From assembly GCA_019695335.1 (NCBI GenBank), contig JAIBAF010000030.1, positions 1 through 39,768 of the forward strand: a stretch of 39,768 nt of DNA, read 5' to 3'. The notes beneath the pieces were generated by a model that had not been told where the DNA came from, made no database searches, and worked only from the letters and a program-made list of their open reading frames with translations. Position 1 is the first letter of the stretch. The number at the start of each line of letters is the position of its first letter. Both the position numbers and the translations under genes were made by a program. Shown here piece after piece: positions 12,640-33,519 of this stretch. This DNA is from a bacterium (GTDB lineage Bacteria; CLD3; SB21).

Positions 12640-12833
12640 AAACCTCTCACGTTTTGTGGAAAAATTGAAAACCAGGAAACTGTTTCGAAAATCAGATGTG
12701 AAATCAAAAAAGGATGGAATTAATATAAGGCTAGGTAAAGAAAATAGCTATTTAATTATTGAGAAAAAACTTGGAGGCATTTTCTGTTTTCCAATCGCTT
12801 TCCAATAACGATTCGGATGGCAATATTGATTGC

Positions 12834-13838
12834 TTACTTGCTTTGCGAGTTGATCAAAACATCGGCCAAATCTTCAATTGGCACCCGATATTTATTAAAA
12901 GCCGCATCACCAGCGACTTGAAGCGCCTTGAGATTTTTTTCGGAAACGTCATCCATTTGAGGACTTGCTTCGCCGAGTTCTGGTTCAATGCGCAGGTATT
13001 GTTTGGAGCAGTCAATGGCATCGAACATCATTCGGAGTTGGTAATCAGCCACTTCAGGACCGGCCGACATAATAATATCGAGAATAGGTTGGAGCCATTC
13101 GGCCTTTCCCCACTTTCGTGCTTCTTCATATTTATAAGACTTCTCGATTTTTCCGGTTCCAATGGACAAGATCACCATGTCTTTGGCTGTAGGATTGCCT
13201 TTGAATTTTCTTGCTTCGGCATAGGCACATAATGCGGGATTGTTGGCAAATACACCACCATCAACCAGTGGAATTTTTTTTCCGGCCATCGAGGTTACCA
13301 GAGCCGGAGCAAAATAAGTTGGAGCGGCCGAGGTGGCCCGGGCGACTTGCCTCGTTAAAAAATTGTTTTTTGGTTCATAGGCATCGTGTTGAGCAAAAAA
13401 TTCAGCGCTGCGATTTTCAATATCATACGCGGTCACCAGTGATGGCTTGAGCAGATCTTTCAACTGAACATCGCCGAAATAATCGGCCAAAGCTTTTTCC
13501 AGACCTTTGACTGAATATTCCTTATCCACAAAACCCCATAACGTTTTGACCTTGCGCCAGAAAGACGATTCAAAAATGTCTTTACCGCGCTTAACATAAA
13601 TATCAACCGCTTCATCCGCACGGTACTTTGGTCGTGAGGGTTTTGCGGGATCGGGAATGAGATAAAAACACGTGAGAATACCGCCGGTGCTCGTTCCGGC
13701 AATCAAATCGAAATAATCGGCAATCCGTGCATCGGGATTCCCGGATTTATCCTGAAAAATTTTCTCCAAATGAATGAGAATTTGTCCGGGAATAATTCCC
13801 CGGATTCCGCCGCCGTCTATCGATAAAATACGCGTCAT
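12834..13838 (-). CDS. Patatin-like phospholipase
   Basis: The 334-residue protein opens with ILSIDGGGIRGIIPG (oxyanion-hole glycines 9-11), followed by the nucleophile elbow GTSTGG with Ser50 and the catalytic aspartate in DGGVFANN (Asp193). This complete Ser-Asp dyad predicts acyl hydrolysis of phospholipids or related esters. No signal peptide is present, so it acts on the cytosolic membrane face unless exported otherwise. The sequence resembles bacterial patatins of the CapV sort, but no nucleotide cyclase is near, so CBASS is not supported. It is the last gene of the seven-gene GMC-to-patatin unit, 43 bases after the four-helix membrane protein, with AAGGTG ahead of its ATG. Confidence 0.9.
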   Translation of the reverse strand: MTRILSIDGGGIRGIIPGQILIHLEKIFQDKSGNPDARIADYFDLIAGTSTGGILTCFYLIPDPAKPSRPKYRADEAVDIYVKRGKDIFESSFWRKVKTLWGFVDKEYSVKGLEKALADYFGDVQLKDLLKPSLVTAYDIENRSAEFFAQHDAYEPKNNFLTRQVARATSAAPTYFAPALVTSMAGKKIPLVDGGVFANNPALCAYAEARKFKGNPTAKDMVILSIGTGKIEKSYKYEEARKWGKAEWLQPILDIIMSAGPEVADYQLRMMFDAIDCSKQYLRIEPELGEASPQMDDVSEKNLKALQVAGDAAFNKYRVPIEDLADVLINSQSK

Positions 13839-13881
13839 AATTTCACCTTATTATTCAATCACCATCTTCAAAAATGTATTC

Positions 13882-14418
13882 CTACTCCTTTTTGGCACGG
13901 AGAAGTTCCAATCCTTTCGTACCAAAATAAAACGCTACCATCATCAAAAATGCTTCACCCATGAGCGAAAATGTAGCCTCATCATTAGGATGAGCTCCGC
14001 TAAAGCGAAGAAGAAGCATCGCCGTTCCCAATACTAAAATGGTCAACGCAATCGTGCCGCGAACGGTTCCGTCCGGGAGGCCAAACGTTTTGTCCTTGTA
14101 AGGATTATCTTCAGGGAGTGACATTTCTTCGTCGGTAACAACCAGCCCGTCACCTTTTCTCTTCAACGCCAGTTCTTTATCGGCGATCATTCGCTCCCAT
14201 TCGCCGTCCGAATAGCCCAGATTAATATTATAAAAGTAAATCGCCCAGATGTAGTATGAAAACATCAGGGCAAACCACATAACGATGAGATCGACGCTGA
14301 TACGCATATAGATATCCGGCAAATCAGGATTAATAAAAATCAGGCATGTGCCTAGAGAAAAAATATTCAACGACCACATCGCGATGACAATTCGCTTTTG
14401 CATATTCGGAAATTTCAT
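13882..14418 (-). CDS. Four-helix membrane protein, unknown function
   Basis: I do not recognise this 178-residue protein. Hydrophobic helices are predicted at about residues 8-28, 37-64, 118-139 and 151-172. A charged soluble loop (about 66-117) rich in Asp, Glu and Lys lies between helices 2 and 3. The sequence FGLPDGTVRGTIALTILVL at the third helix and FYFGTKGLELL at the fourth are distinctive and would be good search seeds. AAGGAG precedes the ATG with good spacing. It lies between the exported coiled-coil gene (73 bases upstream) and the patatin gene (43 bases downstream) in the same unit. Scaffold, channel or holin-like roles are possible but unproven. Confidence 0.65.
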   Translation of the reverse strand: MKFPNMQKRIVIAMWSLNIFSLGTCLIFINPDLPDIYMRISVDLIVMWFALMFSYYIWAIYFYNINLGYSDGEWERMIADKELALKRKGDGLVVTDEEMSLPEDNPYKDKTFGLPDGTVRGTIALTILVLGTAMLLLRFSGAHPNDEATFSLMGEAFLMMVAFYFGTKGLELLRAKKE

Positions 14419-14491
14419 AACTCATCTCCTTATCGAAACAACGTTTATTTTTAAAAATCTCCATCCATACTTGCTTAAAAATAAGCTCATA

Positions 14492-14965
14492 TTATTTTGA
14501 GACAATGAGCCCAAGAACTCCACCCGCTATCATAGACAGCCCGGACATAATCCACATTCTCAATCGCGCTTTTTTAAGTTCGTCCAGCGCCCGGTCAGTA
14601 TTGGCCGTCGAGCGGTCCACAAGAGTATTCGATTGTTCAAGCAACGAACGGTATTTTACGATCGCAGTATCTTGACGCGCGATAAATTTATCCTGCACCA
14701 TCCGAAGACTATCCATATAATTTGTGACACGTTCGAGTTCTCCGGTTAGTTCGGCATAATGAGCCGCCATGTCTTTATAGTATTTCAGTTCGCCTTGCAG
14801 CAAGTAATATTTCTGTTTGCTCAGAATGTACAAGCTATCGCATCGTGCGGTATAACTGCGACCGGTTCGTAAAAGCCCGATCGTATTCGCGTCATCGCAC
14901 GGATCCTGAGCTAAAATGGATCTCGTCGGCCAAAACAGCAATAGTATTACAATACCAATTTTCAT
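14492..14965 (-). CDS. Exported coiled-coil protein with C-terminal membrane anchor
   Basis: The 157-residue protein has a signal peptide ending LAQ near residue 20, then two cysteines (23 and 38). A long helical, heptad-like region spans about residues 45-132, and a C-terminal hydrophobic segment (MWIMSGLSMIAGGVLGLIV, about 135-155) follows. The layout predicts a periplasmic coiled coil tethered to the inner membrane at its C-terminus. GGAGG precedes the ATG. It starts 14 bases after the muramidase gene, which itself carries a long coiled coil, so the two may interact. No family recognised. Confidence 0.65.
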   Translation of the reverse strand: MKIGIVILLLFWPTRSILAQDPCDDANTIGLLRTGRSYTARCDSLYILSKQKYYLLQGELKYYKDMAAHYAELTGELERVTNYMDSLRMVQDKFIARQDTAIVKYRSLLEQSNTLVDRSTANTDRALDELKKARLRMWIMSGLSMIAGGVLGLIVSK

Positions 14966-14979
14966 TGAACCTCCGTGAA

Positions 14980-16113
14980 TTACGATTTACTGAAATCTTC
15001 ATACGCCTTTTTCAACAACCCGGCATAAACGGCAATTTGCCCCGAACCGTTATACCGTTCTGCAAATTTCTCCCAATTTTTTGAAATCAAGAAAGGAAGT
15101 ATGCCCTGATTTTTAATCAAATTGCAAAAGGCGGTAAGATGATCGTTCTCTGAAATGTAGTGAGCATCGACAAATTTATTTACCGATCCAAATCCAGCAG
15201 GCGCATAATTGAAGCCCATAATCTGGAACGCCCCCCACGAAGCCGATGCCAGAGCCGCTTCATCGTTGATCGTGCGCGCCCGATCGAGGCGTTCAAACTC
15301 TCCGACTCCGCCTTTGTAGAAAGTTTTGACCCACTTCGGATATATAATATCAGGATATTTCTCCGACAGCGGTGCAGGATCTATTTTACGAAGGGCTAAT
15401 TGACGCCAGAAAATGTGGCCTTCAAAAAGAATTTTTGGTCTTCCGTCATTTAAAAAGCCACCGCCGGATGATTCCACTTGAATTACAGCCCGGAGCGCAG
15501 CGAGCTCTACGCCAATTTCTTTGGCTTTGTCTTCCTTATCTTTCAGCGTCAATGTCCGGCTCTTTTCTTTGAGCATGATGGCTGGAAATTGTTTTTCAAT
15601 CGGCGCCGGTACACCAAGTTCAACTACATCTTTATGAATGTCTTTTTCAAATTGATCTTTTTCGTCAGGATCAAGATTCTTGATATACTTTTCTGAGCCT
15701 TGCGCCTTCATGTCGGTAATAATATCTTTAAGCCGTTGAGCATGGGCGGTCGATTCAGTAATTTTGGCTTCGTATTCTTTACGTTTCGTTTCATATTCAG
15801 TCCTGTCTGTAGTCAAAGCTTCGTCCGCCGTTCGTGTCTGCGAGCGAATGACCTGTAATTCTTTTTTAATCGCTTCATTTTCAGCACGAATCTCTTTTTC
15901 TGCTTTCGATGGCCCGAACAAATCTCCGATTCGTTTAAAAATTCCAATAATAAAACCGAATAAACCAACGAGCCAATGCCAGGCATTTTTGAAAAACGTA
16001 CCAATCCCTCGAACGATATTTTCTAATTGCTCCCCATGGCCGGTTAAATAAAAAGCTAAAGCAATGAGCAGCAATGCAATTAAAATAATACCGATGATTT
16101 TAAAAATTTTCAT
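14980..16113 (-). CDS. Membrane-anchored N-acetylmuramidase with coiled coil
   Basis: The 377-residue protein has an N-terminal transmembrane helix (about 5-24), a second hydrophobic, amphipathic stretch (33-62), a charged coiled coil (about 68-145) and a C-terminal domain from about 195. That domain reads ALRAVIQVESSGGGF, LFEGHIFWRQL, ASASWGAFQIMGFNY and NGSGQIAVYAGLLKKAYEDF. This is the N-acetylmuramidase family (formerly DUF3380) known from phage endolysins and cell-wall hydrolases. The likely catalytic acid is Glu214 in VESSGG. It is predicted to cleave peptidoglycan glycan strands from the periplasmic face of the inner membrane. The anchored coiled-coil form differs from the usual soluble endolysin. 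It lies 25 bases after the metallophosphoesterase gene in the GMC-to-patatin unit, with AAAGAAG as a moderate ribosome site. Confidence 0.85.
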   Translation of the reverse strand: MKIFKIIGIILIALLLIALAFYLTGHGEQLENIVRGIGTFFKNAWHWLVGLFGFIIGIFKRIGDLFGPSKAEKEIRAENEAIKKELQVIRSQTRTADEALTTDRTEYETKRKEYEAKITESTAHAQRLKDIITDMKAQGSEKYIKNLDPDEKDQFEKDIHKDVVELGVPAPIEKQFPAIMLKEKSRTLTLKDKEDKAKEIGVELAALRAVIQVESSGGGFLNDGRPKILFEGHIFWRQLALRKIDPAPLSEKYPDIIYPKWVKTFYKGGVGEFERLDRARTINDEAALASASWGAFQIMGFNYAPAGFGSVNKFVDAHYISENDHLTAFCNLIKNQGILPFLISKNWEKFAERYNGSGQIAVYAGLLKKAYEDFSKS

Positions 16114-16138
16114 AACGTTGCTTCTTTATGAGTACATA

Positions 16139-17134
16139 CTATAGTCTATTAAACAGTTCTTTCAATTCCATTTCCTGCAGGACTTTAGGCTTAGGTCCCG
16201 GCATAGACGGTATCGGCCATCCGTCAGACCAACGAACAAGCTTGATTTTACCATCGGCAATTTCGATACCGGTTATATCGCCGTCACTGAACGAGCAACA
16301 TCCTGAATTAAAATAGCACGGACGTTTAATTTTGGTTTTTTGATAATCGATTTGATCTTGCAGCGCCTGGATTGCGGCCTCATCGTGTCGGTTTTTGGCT
16401 TCCTGCAATTCCTGCTCTAATTTTTCGGTATGCGCCAGTGACGCAAAAATCGGCTGATGAGTATGTCCTGCAATAACAGCCATTTTTTTATTCAAAGAAT
16501 TAGCCCATTCGTACATTGCTTTGTTATGTTTGCCCCGTAACTCGATGCTGTTGGAAGGCGTATTCGATTTCCACCCAAAAATACGCTGAAGATTTCTCCA
16601 GATAACACGAACTAAAAAACGTGAAACAGGATTCGTATCGATCGCACTGCCTTGATGACCATGCACAAGGTAAATTTCACCAATATCATCACTCCCGTTT
16701 TTAAACTTCAATCGTAAACTCTCGTAAACAATCACTTCGTTGCCGAAAATTGGGAAAAGCCATTTCGTAATCTTTCTCAGATCCGACCAGTCGATATCGT
16801 GATTGCCAAAAAAACGATAATACCGGGATGCCTGGTGAAAGGCCATTTCCAGATGAAGAGAATGTTCGTAGGATTTCAACACAGCTTTTGGACGGTTCTC
16901 CCAAAGTTCTTCCACATCGCCAAGCACGGCCAAAGCAAAACCGGATTGGAAATAATAGGCTAATGCTCTATTATAATTTTGTTCGCAGAGAAGAAAGTCA
17001 TCAGCGCCATCGCGTGCGCCTTTATGCTGATCGGAAAAAACAATAAAACGATCGCTTAAACAATCTGCTTCCACAATCGGAGCGCGTTCATACGCTTTCG
17101 CCAATCCTTTTGCGATGTCGTTTTCGTAACTCAT
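16139..17134 (-). CDS. Calcineurin-like metallophosphoesterase
   Basis: This 331-residue soluble protein contains the full metallophosphoesterase motif set: FSDQHKG (Asp35, His37), LGDVEE (Asp73), GNHD (110-113), VHGHQG (His158, His160) and AGHTHQP (His224, His226). These bind two metals and hydrolyse phosphomonoesters or diesters. The motif set is compatible with lipid-head-group enzymes such as LpxH, nucleotidases or phosphodiesterases; the substrate is not determined. There is no signal peptide, so it is cytosolic. It is the third gene of the unit, 41 bases after the small membrane protein. No clear Shine-Dalgarno sequence precedes the ATG at 17134. Confidence 0.85.
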   Translation of the reverse strand: MSYENDIAKGLAKAYERAPIVEADCLSDRFIVFSDQHKGARDGADDFLLCEQNYNRALAYYFQSGFALAVLGDVEELWENRPKAVLKSYEHSLHLEMAFHQASRYYRFFGNHDIDWSDLRKITKWLFPIFGNEVIVYESLRLKFKNGSDDIGEIYLVHGHQGSAIDTNPVSRFLVRVIWRNLQRIFGWKSNTPSNSIELRGKHNKAMYEWANSLNKKMAVIAGHTHQPIFASLAHTEKLEQELQEAKNRHDEAAIQALQDQIDYQKTKIKRPCYFNSGCCSFSDGDITGIEIADGKIKLVRWSDGWPIPSMPGPKPKVLQEMELKELFNRL

Positions 17135-17175
17135 CAGATTTATTTCAGAGGTTAGTGCTCAAAATTGTTTGAAGT

Positions 17176-17685
17176 CTATCCGATCTTTAAGCCGGGCATA
17201 AAGCGTGAAGCGATAGTGATCCCCGTTTTCGAAATAACCGGATAGAGGCCGTCCAATAAACTCCAGCCGACGATATACGCCATATTACCGTCGATAAAAA
17301 AAAAGTGATCATGTTCCCATGTACCGAGAATTTCTCTCTCGGTCCATTTCACGATAAAGCTAAAAAATGCGAAGAGAATGAATTGCTCCCAGAATGGTTT
17401 GGAGTGACTGCCTGCATAAACAAATCCGAGGCAAAATCCAATCCAGATAAATGTGTGAAACGCATTATTAAGCCACGGAAGGAAACTCATGAAACCGCCG
17501 AGATAAAGCAGGTAGTTCGCAATAAATACGCTTACCGCCCATCCGAAATACAAAAACCAAAATCGTCGCCTGAAATTTAATTCGATGACGGACGACGACT
17601 GACGAATGACTACAAATAAGCAGCCATAGATCACGAGTACTAAAACATAATCGATCCATGAGTTATTTTTTCCAAGAAATTCCAT
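17176..17685 (-). CDS. Small multi-pass membrane protein, unknown function
   Basis: I do not recognise this 169-residue protein. Four hydrophobic helices are visible (about 12-28, 44-63, 68-92 and 100-112), with a shorter apolar stretch near 133-150. Between the last two lies the polar segment WTEREILGTWEHDHFFFIDG, rich in Trp, Glu, His and Asp, which could bind metal or a polar substrate. AAAGGA precedes the ATG. It follows the GMC oxidoreductase gene by 11 bases, so it is probably a membrane partner of that enzyme, for example for quinone or lipid handling (inference). Confidence 0.6.
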   Translation of the reverse strand: MEFLGKNNSWIDYVLVLVIYGCLFVVIRQSSSVIELNFRRRFWFLYFGWAVSVFIANYLLYLGGFMSFLPWLNNAFHTFIWIGFCLGFVYAGSHSKPFWEQFILFAFFSFIVKWTEREILGTWEHDHFFFIDGNMAYIVGWSLLDGLYPVISKTGITIASRFMPGLKIG

Positions 17686-17696
17686 AATATTTTCCT

Positions 17697-20096
17697 TTAT
17701 AACATTCCTAAAATATGCGGAGCGGCATAATGCGCCAAAGCCATGACTGTCAATTGCGGATTGACGCCGATACTGGATGGAAATACACTGGCGTCACAGA
17801 TAAATAAATTGTCATATCCATATACTTTGAATCGATTGTCGACAACACCAAATTCTTTTTGTAAGCTCATGATGTTACCGCCTTGAGGATGCCCCGTTCC
17901 AAGTCCGATCTGGCTGTTATTTTTTATTTTTTCAGGAAGCGTTCGTAACTCATTTTCATTGAAAAATTCATAGAACTTAAATGAATTGGGCATGATACTT
18001 TTAGCGCCGGCGGCCAGAAAAATATCGCCGGCTAGGATCAGGCCATTCAACAGCTTTTCAAAATCGCTTTTGGTCGGAATATATTTGATCTCACGTCCCG
18101 TCAAACCCGCTAACCGAACTTCCGCATTCGATTCGGTGCCGACCAGAACGCCGATACTTGCCAGTTTGTTAAATCGCAGCATGTTGTTAAAATGATCTTC
18201 AAACCAACCTGGCATGTTGATCGCTTGTGCGGTTGGCGGATTAAACCATGTCTCGAGCACGAACCCATCATCTTCCGAACGTTTGAGATAATGCGTGATT
18301 TGCAAACCGTCGTACGCATTGACGATTTTTTCAAATGAAGCCGTGATAGGAGAACCCATATTAAATGACAATCGTTTCCCTGCTCTCCCCGCCGCGACGC
18401 CCGATTTCATCAAAAGAAGGCTTGAAGAAACTGCGCCGGCGCTCACGACAAACGTATTTCCGGCTATTTTAATCGCACGCCCATTGTGGAAACGGCCTAT
18501 CAGATGAGAAATCTTTTTCCCGCCATGGATTTTTTCAACTTCACATCCTGCGACAATTCGAAGCTGTCCGGCATTAGGAATTTTCTGCGCTTCAGGCAGC
18601 ACCGCATCCAGCATTGACATCTTTTTCCCGTAGCGGCATCCGATATTGCAATAACCGCATCCGAGACAACCGGTAATATTGGCATCAACCACGCCGCAAG
18701 CGCTCGGATGTACGTCTAATCCTAACTTCTTACAACCTTCATAAAACAGATCGCCTCCGGCGCTCAGATTTCTATACGGAACGTTATTCGGTTGAGGTGA
18801 GATTTTCAGAAATTTCCTTACCCATGCAAAACTTTCATACAAACGCTTTTCATCCAATCCGGCAGACAGACCGCGTTGATCATTCCAGCGATCAAAAACA
18901 CGTTTAGGCAAATCGAAACAGACGGCATTATTCACTACGGTCGTCCCGCCAACACAGCTTCCTTGTAATACCTGGAATCGGAAATCACGACTTAATTGTA
19001 ACGCACCATCCGCATAGAGTTTTGAAATCATTTCCATCTCGTCTTCAGAAAAACGATCAGGCTCGACATGATTACCCCGCTCGACCATGAGCACATCCTT
19101 GCCTGCTCTCACTAATTCGTACGCTAAAATGGATGCGGCTGCTCCTGAGCCCACAATCACAAAATCACCGATGATATGATCGCTGTCAATTTCTGAAGCA
19201 TTTTTTACGGTCAGAGTTTTCCGGGGTGGAGGCGGGCTGACCGCTAATTTAGTTTTGAAATCCGGCCGCTGAGTGAAGGGCTTATAACCTACCGATTCAA
19301 ACGTACGAGGGTCATTGTAATATCCAAGATAACACAATTGTTTGCTCATCCGAATCATCCCCTGGGTAATCATGCGCCAAAACGGAGGAATCAGTTTAGA
19401 TGAACTATCGTCGTAAAATCGTTTTTTTAAAAATTTCAGACGTTCGCCGGCTTCAATATAAGGCAGAGGCGGCCGGAACGTAAGCATCGGGTAAGCATTC
19501 ATGCCGGTCAGAACCAGTTTCATGATCCATTTCGAACGTGCCTTGAACGCGCCTAAATAACGGTCAACATTACGCGCAACATCTTCAGGCGACAGAATTT
19601 CGTTGGTTCCCTGAATAACGACTTCGGCTAGTGCGACTAATGTCCGAAACTCTGTGGGTGAAAAGTAAACAAGCTGAAAGCGGGCTTTTTCCGCGGCAAA
19701 GAAAAAATATATCAATGCAATCAGGATCACTCCATCCATCACTATCGCGCCCCAGAGCATATTGGCAATCGGCATGGTGATTGTCCCAACGTTTACATCG
19801 TAATCAGTTTTACCAAAGGCCAGCACAAAGCCCATCGCGGCAATTGAAATCACGTGTCCCCAAACGACAATCACGATGAGCGTACGATGTTCACGCACAT
19901 TGACTGAAGCAATCCATGCCAGCAACCACAACGTGCCGATTTTTACGACCGAATTAGTCACGAATGGAAGATTAACATAAAAATCCTGAAGCGGCCCCGT
20001 GAGAGCCGGAAGGAGATAGCCAAAAATGGCGAGAAAAAATAGTATCGAAAGCGTGCGAAGATAAACGCTCAAGCGACGTTCTTCCGGAGTAAACAT
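17697..20096 (-). CDS. Membrane GMC oxidoreductase, long-chain alcohol oxidase-like
   Basis: The 799-residue protein has four hydrophobic helices in the first 150 residues, a helical linker to about 310 and then a full GMC flavoprotein. The FAD-binding motif is DFVIVGSGAAAS (glycines around 316-318), followed by QGSCVGGTTVVNN and the active-site pair His736 (GTGHPQGG) and Asn779 (VNPQ). A cysteine cluster C467-x9-C477-x2-C480-x2-C483-x3-C487 sits in the middle and has ferredoxin-like spacing. The order (N-terminal membrane/helical part, then GMC) recalls long-chain fatty alcohol oxidases, so oxidation of a lipid alcohol or sterol-like substrate is likely. Cholesterol oxidase-like activity is an alternative. 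It is the first gene of the seven-gene unit, with GGGGG before its ATG. Confidence 0.85.
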   Translation of the reverse strand: MFTPEERRLSVYLRTLSILFFLAIFGYLLPALTGPLQDFYVNLPFVTNSVVKIGTLWLLAWIASVNVREHRTLIVIVVWGHVISIAAMGFVLAFGKTDYDVNVGTITMPIANMLWGAIVMDGVILIALIYFFFAAEKARFQLVYFSPTEFRTLVALAEVVIQGTNEILSPEDVARNVDRYLGAFKARSKWIMKLVLTGMNAYPMLTFRPPLPYIEAGERLKFLKKRFYDDSSSKLIPPFWRMITQGMIRMSKQLCYLGYYNDPRTFESVGYKPFTQRPDFKTKLAVSPPPPRKTLTVKNASEIDSDHIIGDFVIVGSGAAASILAYELVRAGKDVLMVERGNHVEPDRFSEDEMEMISKLYADGALQLSRDFRFQVLQGSCVGGTTVVNNAVCFDLPKRVFDRWNDQRGLSAGLDEKRLYESFAWVRKFLKISPQPNNVPYRNLSAGGDLFYEGCKKLGLDVHPSACGVVDANITGCLGCGYCNIGCRYGKKMSMLDAVLPEAQKIPNAGQLRIVAGCEVEKIHGGKKISHLIGRFHNGRAIKIAGNTFVVSAGAVSSSLLLMKSGVAAGRAGKRLSFNMGSPITASFEKIVNAYDGLQITHYLKRSEDDGFVLETWFNPPTAQAINMPGWFEDHFNNMLRFNKLASIGVLVGTESNAEVRLAGLTGREIKYIPTKSDFEKLLNGLILAGDIFLAAGAKSIMPNSFKFYEFFNENELRTLPEKIKNNSQIGLGTGHPQGGNIMSLQKEFGVVDNRFKVYGYDNLFICDASVFPSSIGVNPQLTVMALAHYAAPHILGML

Positions 20097-20225
20097 TGCT
20101 TGCCCCCGTCGGTTTTAAATTTATTTAAAAATAGAGATTTTGAACGGCAGTGCGATAGAGCCTAAATCGTAGTCTTAACTAAATCGCAATCATAATGCTA
20201 AGGAAGGATAATACTATAAAGATAA

Positions 20226-20248
20226 GCGCAAAAACAGGCTTGCGCAAG
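20226..20248. promoter_or_regulatory. Palindrome with extra half-site before the GMC unit
   Basis: The 190-base gap between the AraC gene and the GMC gene holds the perfect 10-base palindrome CTTGCGCAAG (20239-20248) and a further half-site GCGCAA at 20226-20231. These can pair as a 6-bp hairpin with an 8-base loop. The pattern fits an operator for the seven-gene unit, or a weak attenuator after the AraC gene. Confidence 0.35.
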
Positions 20249-20286
20249 GGACAGAATCGCCGGTCATTTTCGACGTGAAAGATTTA

Positions 20287-20652: not shown

Positions 20653-22296
20653 TTAAATACCGAGCAAGCTTCTTATAAAAGCATAGTTACTGGCGATATA
20701 GACAAAATAGACGATCATCATACAGATACCGAACATCCATTCCACGGTTGCGATCAGCTGAAAAATCGATGACCTCTGAAAAATTTCTGATGGAAATTTG
20801 GGTGAAAGAAAAATGTAAACGCTAAACCACATAGCCTGAAAAAAATCCAGTAACCGTGTCAGAAAAAGCCCGCCGACTTTCTTTAAAAGCCCGGACTTCG
20901 GCTCTTGCTGTTCGTTTTTTGCGTATTCGCCTTTCACCATGAACGTCACATCGGTCATGTACCGGCTTTGATAGATCAGCGAAAAAAATACGACAATCAA
21001 AAGCGATGAAAGAAAAAATTGTCCTCCTCCTTCGTAGCCATTACGCACGATGATTTCCAAAATACCGAGGACGGCTCTATCCCAGGACGACGTTTCAGGA
21101 TTGACGCGCTGCAATTGGATCACCTGGTATTTTAATCGCGCCAGAACATCGTTACGAAGTTCTTCGGATGCGTTGGAATTGGCATTGACGTTTTGAATCA
21201 GCGACGCAAGAAGACGTTCGGCTTCATTAAAATTAAAAGCGCTGAGATCAAACCATACTTGTTTTAGCGCTACGAGATTTAAACCGTATTTGATGATATT
21301 CTCATCGACGCCGATGCTGTCTGCCAAATCCGTATTTTCAAGCAGCAGCAAACCGTCAGTCAGTGCACGGCCACGATCGGCTACGCTTTCATGAAAAGCT
21401 ATATTCGTTAAATTGGTAAATTTTTTAAAAGTTGCTCCGTTCAGGCTCATCTTACTGTCAAGATCTACCCCGCTCAAATCAGCGCCTTGGAGGAATTGCG
21501 CATGATAAACCGAAAACTTACTGTCAAAAAAAGTTCCGCTGAAAAAAACCGGAACGTTGAAAATAGCATCATCCATCTCCACATCTTTGAGATGATTTTG
21601 AGCCAGTGCAAAATACGATTGAACCGAGGCGTCCGAACGGCTTCTCTTAAATAATACTTTATGACAGTTCAACTGATTCGATACGCTTGAGTGATATAGA
21701 GTAACGGGTTTCCAGAAAGTACTTCTTGAAAAATCAATCCCGTTAAAATGGGAATTCTCGATATAAACCGAATCAATAAAAATTCCGTCAGACAAGTCGA
21801 ATCCGGTACGAAAAACACAATGTTCGATCACTAAAGATTTGCTGAATTGCCGTTCATATTTTTGATTGGGTTCACGCCGTTGGACAACCGTATTGTACAC
21901 AATGCAATTCTTCATGCGCAATGGAATGGCAAGATTCGATCGACCACGCACGGCATTGATTCGTTCAATGCGCTCAAGATTGAGCGATTCAATAAACAAA
22001 TTTTCGATGACTTGATTAGAAGCGATAGAGCCAAAAAGCAGCGAATCGTCGTTATCGTTTAACTGATTCTTAAAAAATTTATACCAACGCTTTTCAGGAT
22101 ATTCGCCGTTCACTGTTTGACTAACCAGGATGGAGTCGTCTTGGAAAGTGTCTATGTGAATAAACGATTGACCGGCACGAAAATCAGGTATTGTTTGCTG
22201 TGCAATGGCACCCGTTGCCATAGCTAGCAACAACAGCAATTGCACCCATTGCCATTGACGACCGACTAATGCTACAGATATCAGTTTGAAATTCAT
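20653..22296 (-). CDS. Exported pentapeptide-repeat-like protein with channel-like C-terminus
   Basis: The start at 22296 is chosen because GGGGGAA lies six bases upstream and a signal peptide follows (hydrophobic core VQLLLLLAMATGAIAQ). An ATG at 22386 would add 30 residues that hide it. The 547-residue protein has a beta-helical middle part (about 100-300) with pentapeptide-like units such as LQGADLSGVDLDSKMSLNGATF. A charged helical segment follows, then three hydrophobic helices at about 422-446, 482-498 and 510-541. The last two recall the pore helix and TM2 of two-TM ion channels (IATVEWMFGICMMIVYFVY), a known fusion partner of pentapeptide repeats. The selectivity filter T-x-G-Y-G is replaced by SPKFPSE. 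Ion conduction is therefore uncertain. It is first in the strand-wise series leading to the AraC gene. Confidence 0.6.
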   Translation of the reverse strand: MNFKLISVALVGRQWQWVQLLLLLAMATGAIAQQTIPDFRAGQSFIHIDTFQDDSILVSQTVNGEYPEKRWYKFFKNQLNDNDDSLLFGSIASNQVIENLFIESLNLERIERINAVRGRSNLAIPLRMKNCIVYNTVVQRREPNQKYERQFSKSLVIEHCVFRTGFDLSDGIFIDSVYIENSHFNGIDFSRSTFWKPVTLYHSSVSNQLNCHKVLFKRSRSDASVQSYFALAQNHLKDVEMDDAIFNVPVFFSGTFFDSKFSVYHAQFLQGADLSGVDLDSKMSLNGATFKKFTNLTNIAFHESVADRGRALTDGLLLLENTDLADSIGVDENIIKYGLNLVALKQVWFDLSAFNFNEAERLLASLIQNVNANSNASEELRNDVLARLKYQVIQLQRVNPETSSWDRAVLGILEIIVRNGYEGGGQFFLSSLLIVVFFSLIYQSRYMTDVTFMVKGEYAKNEQQEPKSGLLKKVGGLFLTRLLDFFQAMWFSVYIFLSPKFPSEIFQRSSIFQLIATVEWMFGICMMIVYFVYIASNYAFIRSLLGI

Positions 22297-22380
22297 GCAA
22301 TTCCCCCAGTCATAAATTTCAACACAAATTTGAAAAACAAAATTTGGAATTTCATTAGTAAGACTCGAAAACCAATAAAA

Positions 22381-22424
22381 TTCCATAAAAAATTTCTTTG
22401 GGTATATTTTCCATAAATATGGTT
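22381..22424. promoter_or_regulatory. Repeated TTCCATAAA elements in a divergent intergenic region
   Basis: The 203 bases between the divergent channel-like gene and the hybrid kinase hold two direct copies of TTCCATAAA at 22381 and 22409. The second is extended to the inverted repeat CCATA-AA-TATGG. A regulator binding site is possible; no certain promoter could be placed. Confidence 0.25.
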
Positions 22425-30013: not shown

Positions 30014-31009
30014 CTACTTCATCAAGTCCACTAGCAATCCTTTTTCATATTTCAGGGCTTTTTCATACACAAGTGAAACGGTCGCTGCATCTTGCAAAGC
30101 AATTCCTGTACTATCAAAAATAAATATCTCATCGTCAGAAGTTCGCCCGCTTTTTTTTCCAACGATAATTTCTCCAAGCTCTGCATGTACCTCCTCTTTT
30201 TTTATCAACCCGGCATTCAAAGTGTGATGCAATTCACCAATCGTAGCACACTGTTCCAATGCATCGACTACTAATCGGCTGCGAGCCACTAACAAGGGTT
30301 CGACTTCCTGTTTTTCTTCATGGTCAGCGCCAACGGCAGCAATGAAAGCTCCGGGCTGTACCCATTCATTTTTCAAAAAAGCCCGTGTCGACGTTGTACA
30401 CGTCACGCAAACATCACTCTGTCGAACAGCCATACCGAGATCATCGGCTTTGAGAATTGTGACAGGATATTCTATACTCATTTGCTTAACAAAATGATCG
30501 GTTACTGCATGGTCGATATCGTAAGCATAGACTTTTTCTATGGGCAATACATTCATTAACATTTTGAGAGAAATTCTTCCCTGATTACCACAACCACATA
30601 TGGTCAGGGTTTTTGCGTTTTTTTTTGCAAGATGCTTGGCGGCAAGAGCTGTCGCTGCTCCCGTTCGCAACACCGTTATTTCGGTTGAATCCGTTATGGC
30701 TAATAAACGTCCATCTTCAGCATTCGACACGACAATCGCGCCTTGAATGGTTGGAAGTCCGGTACGTGATCGGTTAAATGGGAAATTGGCATTAATTTTA
30801 GCAATAAAATACAGGACATCATGTTCCCAAATCCCTGCTTTGATATGAAAGCCTCCTCCTGAAACGTGACGTCCCAATATACCGGGTGGATATGCCTTTC
30901 CTTCGGCTAACAACGCAAACGAATTTTCTACCGCGGATAAACATTCTTCAGCATCAATCAAGGATGCAACATCTGATCGTGTCAGTATTAGCGTCTGCGT
31001 AGAATTCAT
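30014..31009 (-). CDS. Ornithine cyclodeaminase/mu-crystallin-family protein
   Basis: The 331-residue protein has the features of the ornithine cyclodeaminase family. These are the substrate-side FHIKAGIW (Lys57) and Lys71, the RTGAATALAAKHLA helix, and the dinucleotide-binding motif ICGCGNQGR (glycines 139, 141, 144). Relatives act as ornithine cyclodeaminases, alanine or ketimine dehydrogenases, or eutC-like enzymes with NAD(P). The exact substrate cannot be read from the sequence. Its ATG overlaps the stop of the ChrA gene (ATGA at 31006-31009) with AAAGGA upstream, so it is the last gene of the chromate-type unit. That context is unusual for this enzyme and leaves its role open. Confidence 0.85.
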   Translation of the reverse strand: MNSTQTLILTRSDVASLIDAEECLSAVENSFALLAEGKAYPPGILGRHVSGGGFHIKAGIWEHDVLYFIAKINANFPFNRSRTGLPTIQGAIVVSNAEDGRLLAITDSTEITVLRTGAATALAAKHLAKKNAKTLTICGCGNQGRISLKMLMNVLPIEKVYAYDIDHAVTDHFVKQMSIEYPVTILKADDLGMAVRQSDVCVTCTTSTRAFLKNEWVQPGAFIAAVGADHEEKQEVEPLLVARSRLVVDALEQCATIGELHHTLNAGLIKKEEVHAELGEIIVGKKSGRTSDDEIFIFDSTGIALQDAATVSLVYEKALKYEKGLLVDLMK

Positions 31010-32130
31010 AAAATTCCTTTAAAAATTAATCCGCATACGGCCATGATCGCAATAACTACCGGCTCCTTGATGCGGGAGAATCGGACTAAAATAATAACGG
31101 TTGAAATCGCGATTGCAACAGTAAACCAATCGGATAATGTTTTTTTGGCTATTACAACGACAGCGCCTGCAATGGCTCCTATCGCCGCGACAGTTACGCC
31201 TTCAACAAACGTTTTAATGAGTTGTTTTTTTCCGTACTTTTTAAAATAAGGCGCAGGAATGATCGTGAAAATGTAACACGGAAAAAAAGTTGCAATGGCA
31301 GCAATACATGCACCCGGAAATCCAGCAATAAGATAGCCGATGAATCCGACTGTAATGACTACGGGACCCGGTGTTATCATCGCAATCGCGACAGCATCGA
31401 GAAATTGTTGTTCCGTTAGCCATCCTCTTTCCGTTACGAGCCCGCCATATAAAAAAGGTACGATGGCCAATCCGCTTCCAAAAACAAAAGCGCCGGCTGT
31501 TCCAAAAAAAATCGCAATTTGAATAAATATTGAATCAGTCAATACAACTGGAAGTTGTAAGAACAAAAGCGACAAAAGACCGCTGCCATTATTTATAAGT
31601 TGGCGCGATTTAGCTAACACCATCAAAAAACCTCCGGCCACAATGAGCCAAATGATTTCCGATTCCAGAAGGATCGTTACACTTGCGAGAACTGTGAAAA
31701 TAATCCAAGCGACGATATCCGTTCGGATGGTTTTAACGGTTAACCGGTAACAACTCAGTGATATGATGCCTATCACCGCTGCACTCACTCCGTAAAAAAG
31801 AACCTGCACCCAGACAAGCCCTTGAAACTCAACATACGCCCAGCCTATGAGTACCACCATACAAAACGAAGGAAAAATAAATGCAAGCCCGGTAAAAGTT
31901 GCGCCCATTATTTTGTAATGAACATAACCAATATAAATAGCCAATTGAGCGGCTAACGGCCCGGGAGCGAGTTGAGCAAGCGCAAGACCTTCTCTGTAAT
32001 CATCTTCCGAAATCCATTTATAATTCAAAACTAAATCCCGATGCATATATCCAATCAAGGCTACCGGCCCGCCAAAACCCCATGTACCAAGTTTCAAAAA
32101 ATAAAAGCATAATTCTTTCAAAGTATACAT
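31006..32130 (-). CDS. chrA: Chromate transporter ChrA, long two-domain form
   Basis: The 374-residue membrane protein consists of two homologous halves. The first opens with FLKLGTWGFGGPVALIGYM and LAQLAPGPLAAQLAIYIGY; the second with FGTAGAFVFGSGLAIVPFLY and IAMITPGPVVITVGFIGYL. The duplicated APGP/TPGP motifs and about ten helices define the CHR transporter family, which exports chromate from the cytosol. Some CHR proteins move sulfate or other anions, so chromate specificity is inferred from the ChrB neighbours. It is six bases after the stand-alone ChrB gene and overlaps the next gene by four bases. The start has only a weak ribosome site. Confidence 0.9.
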   Translation of the reverse strand: MYTLKELCFYFLKLGTWGFGGPVALIGYMHRDLVLNYKWISEDDYREGLALAQLAPGPLAAQLAIYIGYVHYKIMGATFTGLAFIFPSFCMVVLIGWAYVEFQGLVWVQVLFYGVSAAVIGIISLSCYRLTVKTIRTDIVAWIIFTVLASVTILLESEIIWLIVAGGFLMVLAKSRQLINNGSGLLSLLFLQLPVVLTDSIFIQIAIFFGTAGAFVFGSGLAIVPFLYGGLVTERGWLTEQQFLDAVAIAMITPGPVVITVGFIGYLIAGFPGACIAAIATFFPCYIFTIIPAPYFKKYGKKQLIKTFVEGVTVAAIGAIAGAVVVIAKKTLSDWFTVAIAISTVIILVRFSRIKEPVVIAIMAVCGLIFKGIL

Positions 32131-32136
32131 AGTCTT

Positions 32137-32589
32137 TTATAATTGAGGATTCCAATTGTGTATTTCATCAGGAACATGTTTGGCCCAGCTGTATAATGCG
32201 TCATAGATTTTCAAACCAAACGCAAGCTGCTCATAATCGTCTTTGAAGTTGTAAGAAATTCCGGCCGACATGGCCCATAACCCCGCGGCTTCCGGCGCCA
32301 ATTCAAAATGGTGCGTGTCGGCCCCACGTATAATTAAAGCCATCCGGCGAACCGCCTGATCAGAAATAGAATGCTTTTTAACAATAAAATCAAAAGTGCA
32401 ATACTCCCCTTCGTGCGAATATTCGGCTCCTGGAATATCAAAAGGAATGGCTTTCAGTTCAGCCGCTTTAGTAAAAACTTCCGCAGAAGGAACAAAAAGA
32501 AATTGAGCGTTTTTGTCTACAAAATTGAGAATCAACCAGGGACATGCTATACGATCAATTTTCGGGCGTGCTCGTGTAATCCATTTCAT
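32137..32589 (-). CDS. Stand-alone ChrB-domain protein
   Basis: The 150-residue protein is a ChrB C-terminal domain: MKWITRARPKIDRIACPWLI, AIPFDIPGAEYSHEGEYCTFDF, LIIRGADTHH and DDYEQLAFGLKIYDALYSWAK. Full-length ChrB has an extra N-terminal domain and acts in chromate sensing and resistance; here only this domain is present. It is similar along its whole length to the first 150 residues of the next upstream gene (ChrB-AraC), by eye more than half identical. The two therefore arose by duplication or by splitting of a fused gene. The cysteine at residue 16 is conserved in both copies. An inverted repeat lies just upstream at 32599-32637. Confidence 0.85.
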   Translation of the reverse strand: MKWITRARPKIDRIACPWLILNFVDKNAQFLFVPSAEVFTKAAELKAIPFDIPGAEYSHEGEYCTFDFIVKKHSISDQAVRRMALIIRGADTHHFELAPEAAGLWAMSAGISYNFKDDYEQLAFGLKIYDALYSWAKHVPDEIHNWNPQL

Positions 32590-32598
32590 AATAATTCA

Positions 32599-32637
32599 AT
32601 TGGGTAATGACGATGATTCGTAAGCAATTTACCCAAT
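32599..32637. promoter_or_regulatory. Inverted repeat, candidate operator of the chrB-chrA unit
   Basis: ATTGGGTAA (32599-32607) and TTACCCAAT (32629-32637) form a perfect 9-base inverted repeat. The centres are 30 bases apart, ten bases before the stand-alone ChrB gene and 45 bases after the ChrB-AraC gene. The AT-rich stem and lack of a T-run argue against a terminator. The same nonamer recurs at 37963-37971. Confidence 0.5.
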
Positions 32638-32682
32638 CTGCAAAATGGAATATAGAATGGAGTTGACGTTTTTGTATAGGAT

Positions 32683-33519
32683 TTACTTTTTCGGAAGTTT
32701 TTTTCTATATACGGAAGGGTTTTCGCCTGTGTGTTTTTTGAAAATTCGATTAAAATGGCTTTGATCGGAGAAACCCGTCAGATAAGCAATTTCAGCGAGG
32801 GAGTATTGCGGATTACCGAGGAGTGTTATGGCTTTTTCAATGCGAAGCTTGCGAATGTATTCTCCAAAAGAAAGGTTATCAAAATATTTTGAAAATTCAC
32901 GCGACAGGTAAGAAGGATGAACGTTCAAGGTCTGGGAAATATTTTTGAGGCTGAAAGTCAAATCGGCGTCAATCTGATCCTGGATAATGCTTTTTAATTC
33001 AAGCGTCCATGCTGGAATCTTTCCTGATTTTTTATTCAAAAATTTCTGATAAACTTCCAGCAGCAAATTTTCAAATGGATTTTGCGTATGGGTTTCATTT
33101 TGCAGGAATTTTGCCCAGCTGTATAAAGCGTCATAAATTGTCATGCCCTGCCGGAGTAATTCATAGTCATCTTGAATATTGTGCGACATTCCGGCGGCAA
33201 TGGCCCACAAGCCTGAAGCTTGGCTCGCGAGAGTATGACGGTCGGTATCCGCTCCCCTTACGATATGAGCCATGACAGCCAGCGCCGGATCGTCAAGACG
33301 GTGTTTACTGATAATGTAGTCAAACGTACAACGATCGCCGTAATGCGTATATTCAACATTGGGAATATCGAAAGGAATGGCGCCCGATTCTTTGGCTGCC
33401 GATTCGATTTGATCGAATGGCACATAAATAAATTCAGCATCCGTATCTACAAAACGCTTGATGAGCCATGGACATGCAATACGATCGATTTTAGGACGTT
33501 CCCGTGTTATCCATTTCAT
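32683..33519 (-). CDS. ChrB-AraC fusion, probable chromate-responsive regulator
   Basis: The 278-residue protein joins an N-terminal ChrB domain (1-150; MKWITRERPKIDRIACPWLI, FDIPNVEYTHYGDRCTFDY, IVRGADTDRHT) to a C-terminal AraC/XylS double helix-turn-helix (about 185-275). The latter includes ISQTLNVHPSYLSREFSKYF and LAEIAYLTGFSDQSHFNRIF, with the family's closing NPSVYR motif. The natural reading is a one-component regulator in which the ChrB domain senses chromate, or its effect, and the AraC domain binds DNA. ChrB is normally linked to a different N-terminal domain, so this fusion is unusual. It starts 11 bases after the large BNR gene and precedes the ChrB/ChrA genes. No clear Shine-Dalgarno sequence precedes the ATG. 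Confidence 0.85.
   Translation of the reverse strand: MKWITRERPKIDRIACPWLIKRFVDTDAEFIYVPFDQIESAAKESGAIPFDIPNVEYTHYGDRCTFDYIISKHRLDDPALAVMAHIVRGADTDRHTLASQASGLWAIAAGMSHNIQDDYELLRQGMTIYDALYSWAKFLQNETHTQNPFENLLLEVYQKFLNKKSGKIPAWTLELKSIIQDQIDADLTFSLKNISQTLNVHPSYLSREFSKYFDNLSFGEYIRKLRIEKAITLLGNPQYSLAEIAYLTGFSDQSHFNRIFKKHTGENPSVYRKKLPKK

Follow-up and report, generated by a model that had tools for sequence, protein, structure and literature searches.

An accessory seven-gene block that may join membrane lipid oxidation to a lysis-type envelope breach in a CLD3 bacterium

Do seven closely spaced genes that read in one direction form a functional unit, and if so, what might that unit do at the cell envelope? 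The question is raised by a contig of 39,768 nucleotides (JAIBAF010000030.1, assembly GCA_019695335.1; hereafter "the window") from a bacterium of the CLD3 lineage. An earlier note on this DNA proposed that the enzymes and membrane proteins encoded here act together on the envelope, remodelling it or deliberately breaching it, as a stress, antagonism, or defence device. Our ORF scan agreed exactly with the note on the seven minus-strand genes, their order, and the gaps between them (11, 41, 25, 14, 73, and 43 bases from the GMC gene to the patatin gene) (Table 1). In the literature searched, no described system matched the gene set, which the note had likewise regarded as apparently undescribed. 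All four enzymes (GMC oxidoreductase, phosphoesterase, muramidase, and patatin) retain their catalytic motifs, and no convincing Pfam, NCBIfam, or PHROG family was found for either membrane protein or for the coiled coil.

Table 1. Features of the block in window coordinates, with the module to which each gene appears to belong
Feature	Position	Strand	Apparent module	Basis or remark
Patatin-like phospholipase, phage-WO-type clade	12834..13838	-	B	PF01734, 4.9e-24; tree
TM178, four-helix membrane protein, no known family	13882..14418	-	B	No family match; holin-like by position only
Exported coiled-coil protein	14492..14965	-	B	Sequence and hydropathy; no convincing family
Membrane-tethered N-acetylmuramidase, 377 aa	14980..16113	-	B	PF11860, 1.7e-58; PHROG endolysin, 6e-65; solved phage endolysins; hydropathy
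Calcineurin-like metallophosphoesterase	16139..17134	-	A (by position)	PF00149, 24.7 bits above cut-off
TM169, multi-TM membrane protein, no known family; GMC partner	17176..17685	-	A	Homologs adjoin GMC elsewhere
GMC flavin oxidoreductase, 799 aa	17697..20096	-	A	PF00732, 9.4e-31; PF05199, 5.9e-20; GMC_oxred_N/C
Presence/absence block (~7.47 kb)	12785..20250 (approximate)	.		G001 contig C310 joins window ~12760-12785 to ~20252
Hairpin and modest U tract that may terminate the AraC transcript upstream	20226..20245	-		Immediately upstream of the GMC promoter region; weak (fold -8.8 kcal/mol, z -1.7)

Seven genes that occur or are missing together

When two genomes of the same genus are compared, the seven genes behave as a single presence/absence unit. 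A DNA search of nine genomes of the phylum, i.e., eight relatives plus the genome itself, showed all seven to be missing at the syntenic site of the second genome (G001, 91% complete), where contig C310 carries a radical SAM gene followed, after ~99 bp, by the AraC and pentapeptide-repeat genes in the order kept in the window. TM178, TM169, and the muramidase have no match in any of the relatives, G001 included, and these carry either no GMC gene or only distant ones. Since these genes are not found elsewhere in G001 or the other relatives, the GMC being at most distantly represented, the block is more likely to have been gained in its own lineage than lost from G001.

No second genome with the complete seven-gene set was found. 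The earlier note had regarded the grouping as accidental should homologs of the seven rarely co-occur, and joint occurrence of all seven is indeed rare: TM178 and the muramidase are absent from about 370-390 sampled genomes each, the count for TM178 being about 386, the phosphoesterase is a stand-alone gene elsewhere, and the G001 patatin is broken and lies at another site. What stands of the proposed group is a co-directional accessory unit, missing as one block from the G001 syntenic site; a conserved seven-gene system is not supported. The GMC and TM169 genes do recur together, and in composition the block looks like two modules, A (GMC, TM169, and phosphoesterase) and B (muramidase, coiled coil, TM178, and patatin).

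Base composition does not set the block apart as foreign. That the block as a whole stems from a prophage was rejected, since the window ORF lists contain no recognised phage structural genes. Promoter and terminator scans gave no signal beyond shuffles.

A dispersed 31-bp repeat (CAAGGGACAGAATCGCCGGTCATTTTCGACG) is common to both same-genus genomes, with copies at window positions 20245-20275 and, in other loci, at L065 7273-7303 and 13396-13426, L067 1676-1706, and L068 797-827; one copy lies on the block's right border, and a second falls within the truncated G001 patatin. The nearby pentapeptide-repeat gene (20653-22386), conserved in G001, encodes a 577-aa protein with C-terminal TM segments and lies upstream of a gene for a short (111-aa) protein with an AraC-type DNA-binding domain. 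At 31006-33519 the window encodes a putative chromate-transporter-like membrane protein, adjoining two related small proteins, one of them fused to an AraC-type domain.

The GMC oxidoreductase and its recurrent neighbourhood

The window GMC protein has the FAD/GMC domains and motifs (active-site GTGHPQGG and GVNPQL) in common with cholesterol oxidase, choline dehydrogenase, and MftG-type GMCs, but differs from these in an N-terminal multi-TM domain predicted by hydropathy, a conserved Cys motif (CLGCGYCNIGC, residues 477-487), and the TM169 partner. It scored far below every NCBIfam equivalog cut-off, and no close solved structure was found. The Cys motif recalls that of long-chain alcohol oxidases (FAO-like GMCs), presumably a lead to the type of enzyme.

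Orthologs 43-54% identical were recovered from six loci (L016, L017, L018, L098, L099, and L100). A genome-contig search with the GMC sequence returned full-length or near-full-length orthologs from one MAG each of Bacteroidota (54%), Ignavibacteriae (46%, truncated at the contig end), and Gemmatimonadetes (44%), plus a weaker one (36%) from a Thermoflexus-labelled MAG. When 395 genomes of the Bacteroidota MAG's phylum were searched with a profile, three close and two distant orthologs were added, and their neighbourhoods were read. Together, the GMC and TM169 genes form a recurring pair, found in four other genomes besides the window. A full-length GMC ortholog with an adjacent TM169 homolog (50-58% identity) is present in L016, L099, and L100 as it is in the window, and in L017 the TM169 homolog adjoins the GMC gene divergently and is apparently frame-shifted. 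An AlphaFold model of TM169 (pLDDT 77) had no match at E < 0.001 in a fold search against the PDB.

PF00149 phosphoesterases lie beside the GMC relatives at four of eight loci (L018, L098, L100, and L101), and a lipoprotein with a C-terminal TM helix lies near them at four (L016, L018, L098, and L102). None of the 23 control loci (300 kb in total; a small set, some overlapping, not taxon-matched) carries TM169, the GMC-side phosphoesterase, or the lipoprotein. In Bacteroidota-type lineages the GMC, TM169, phosphoesterase, and lipoprotein neighbourhood recurs and apparently represents an undescribed membrane lipid-enzyme set. The window shares with it the GMC, TM169, and the phosphoesterase superfamily. 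Its own phosphoesterase, with all metal motifs present (SDQH, GD, GNHD, HGHQ, and GHTH), belongs to a PF00149 subfamily different from that of the GMC-adjacent enzymes, to which the profile match is weak, and was ruled out as a conserved partner since its relatives stand alone. The window coiled coil has no homology to the GMC-linked lipoprotein. Two of the recurrent loci (L018 6914-9960 and L098 4243-7745) have a conserved run of phosphoesterase, lipoprotein with C-terminal TM, a 201-aa protein, and GMC; the 201-aa proteins between lipoprotein and GMC are 77% identical to each other and have no Pfam match.

A phage-type muramidase and a patatin beside two small membrane-associated proteins

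The muramidase supplies an endolysin-family peptidoglycan hydrolase with intact motifs (VESSGGGF and SASWGAFQIMG), as expected of a lysis cassette, and its catalytic domain (~185-375) is of the phage endolysin type according to PF11860, PHROG, and solved structures. This domain is preceded by a strong TM helix, a weaker second hydrophobic segment, and a coiled coil; none of the relatives read from phages and plasmids has this tether and coiled coil. If both segments span the membrane, the active domain would come to lie in the cytoplasm. The muramidase is absent from about 370-390 sampled genomes, and none of the other module B genes turned up around muramidase genes of plasmids, phages, or 76 IMG/VR contigs. 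On a Paraburkholderia plasmid (L073 2922-4840), a phage-type muramidase lies directly downstream of a putatively SLATT-like TM protein.

The coiled-coil protein has a signal peptide, a 66-residue helical stretch free of P and G, and a C-terminal TM helix. This topology is spanin-like, but no lipobox was recognised and no homology to spanins (i/o-spanin or u-spanin) was found. TM178 is a small 4-TM protein, and homology to any holin was not found. TM178 homologs were found neither in phages, plasmids, IMG/VR, and about 390 whole genomes nor by its LPDGTVRG motif, and its single-sequence structure prediction (pLDDT 59) was too low for use.

The patatin, with its catalytic dyad motifs GTSTGG (48-53) and DGG (193-195), grouped in a tree with proteins from phage WO, Chryseobacterium, Cetobacterium, Nostoc, and Megaera. 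Closest to it are a plasmid-encoded Chryseobacterium protein whose gene is next to an M15 endolysin-type gene, a Cetobacterium protein whose gene adjoins a GH18 gene, and the phage WO patatin. For the latter, a role has been proposed in a lytic cassette that contains a holin-like protein, where it would stand in for the endolysin (PMC9203015). As in the window, a patatin of this clade (38-39% identical to the window's) lies beside a small membrane protein in the WO cassette, which in contrast has an ankyrin protein instead of a muramidase and sits inside a prophage, whereas no phage genes were seen near the window block; the lysis role of the cassette is a published hypothesis. What G001 retains is a broken patatin gene on another contig (C229, L065 7235-7822), not at the syntenic site. 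This remnant shares about 74% identity with its window counterpart and is next to genes for an endonuclease/exonuclease/phosphatase-family protein and a Cache-domain protein.

Possible functions of the block

The explanation we favour, with a probability of roughly 0.4, is that the block is a lineage-specific accessory operon in which two modules are joined, A acting in lipid redox and B in a lysis-cassette-like breach of the envelope. The membrane-embedded GMC flavoenzyme would oxidise an inner-membrane lipid or long-chain alcohol and, partnered by TM169, pass the electrons into the membrane, and the phosphoesterase would take phosphate off the same or a related lipid. Module B would work like a phage lysis cassette: TM178, the patatin, or both would compromise the inner membrane, after which the glycan strands would be cut by the tethered muramidase. 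Held in place by its C-terminal helix, the periplasmic coiled coil would act at the envelope as a spanin does. The net effect would be a regulated breach or self-lysis of the cell envelope.

The phage-type muramidase domain, the phage WO and endolysin-adjacent relatives of the patatin, and the WO lytic-cassette proposal together make a lysis-type function the best single reading of module B. Against it, TM178 and the coiled coil lack holin and spanin homology, their likeness to these proteins being one of topology and gene order only, and a second TM segment in the muramidase would put its active domain in the cytoplasm, which bears on the mechanism. The module A reading has against it that the window phosphoesterase is of another subfamily than the one recurring beside GMC genes. 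Lysis cassettes of tailed phages (holin, PF11860 endolysin, and spanins, e.g., in Aeromonas phage LPM4) have the same endolysin domain with adjoining small membrane proteins; the window block departs from them in its membrane-tethered muramidase with coiled coil, its added patatin, and its want of recognised homology to holins and spanins. As an intact module B is known from no second genome among those searched, selection for the gene combination is at most conjectural. The envelope and lipid theme of the earlier note is borne out by these data, and the breach that it envisaged gains strength for the patatin and muramidase half only. An extended version, in which a domesticated chromosomal lysis device (tethered muramidase, WO-type phospholipase, and holin- and spanin-like proteins) is triggered by or coupled to the membrane lipid redox enzyme, with a programmed breach sensed at the membrane, is unlikely.

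A doubtful but still substantial competitor is envelope remodelling with no killing, i.e., lipid and peptidoglycan modification or turnover under stress or nutrient scavenging. The GMC, phosphoesterase, and patatin would all fit lipid substrates, GMC neighbourhoods with lipoprotein and phosphoesterase recur in MAGs, and a tethered muramidase could serve as a controlled wall hydrolase; yet the nearest relatives of the muramidase domain and patatin are largely from phages or mobile elements, and the block is accessory and missing from close relatives. Somewhat less probable is that the genes were brought together by accident, at a hot spot that gained module A and then phage-derived genes singly, with no joint function. 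Such a history would accord with the failure to find another genome with all seven genes, the patatin remnant at an unrelated site in the sister genome, the stand-alone phosphoesterase relatives, and the dispersed repeat at the right border, but sits uneasily with the short gaps, the single direction, and the single-block absence in G001.

The defence role suggested earlier is weakened. An anti-phage device in which the patatin serves as a CapV-like phospholipase of abortive infection would fit the PADLOC effector models that match the protein (3.5e-68) and its score against NF041079 (191.4 bits for a cut-off of 200). CBASS CapV and the window protein have the patatin fold in common (about 28-32% identity), but CapV forms a separate clade (100/99), and true CapV loci have an adjacent CD-NTase cyclase, whereas no CD-NTase or other PADLOC partner was found among the block and neighbouring genes tested. 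CBASS membership was therefore rejected on the sub-threshold NCBIfam score, the tree position, and the missing adjacent cyclase, and a defence device is very improbable.

If module B lyses cells, it would represent a lysis kit outside any prophage, with a phospholipase added to the endolysin, and it would offer an independent test of the patatin-based lysis proposed for phage WO. For the GMC, TM169, phosphoesterase, and lipoprotein set, the substrate is a testable question.
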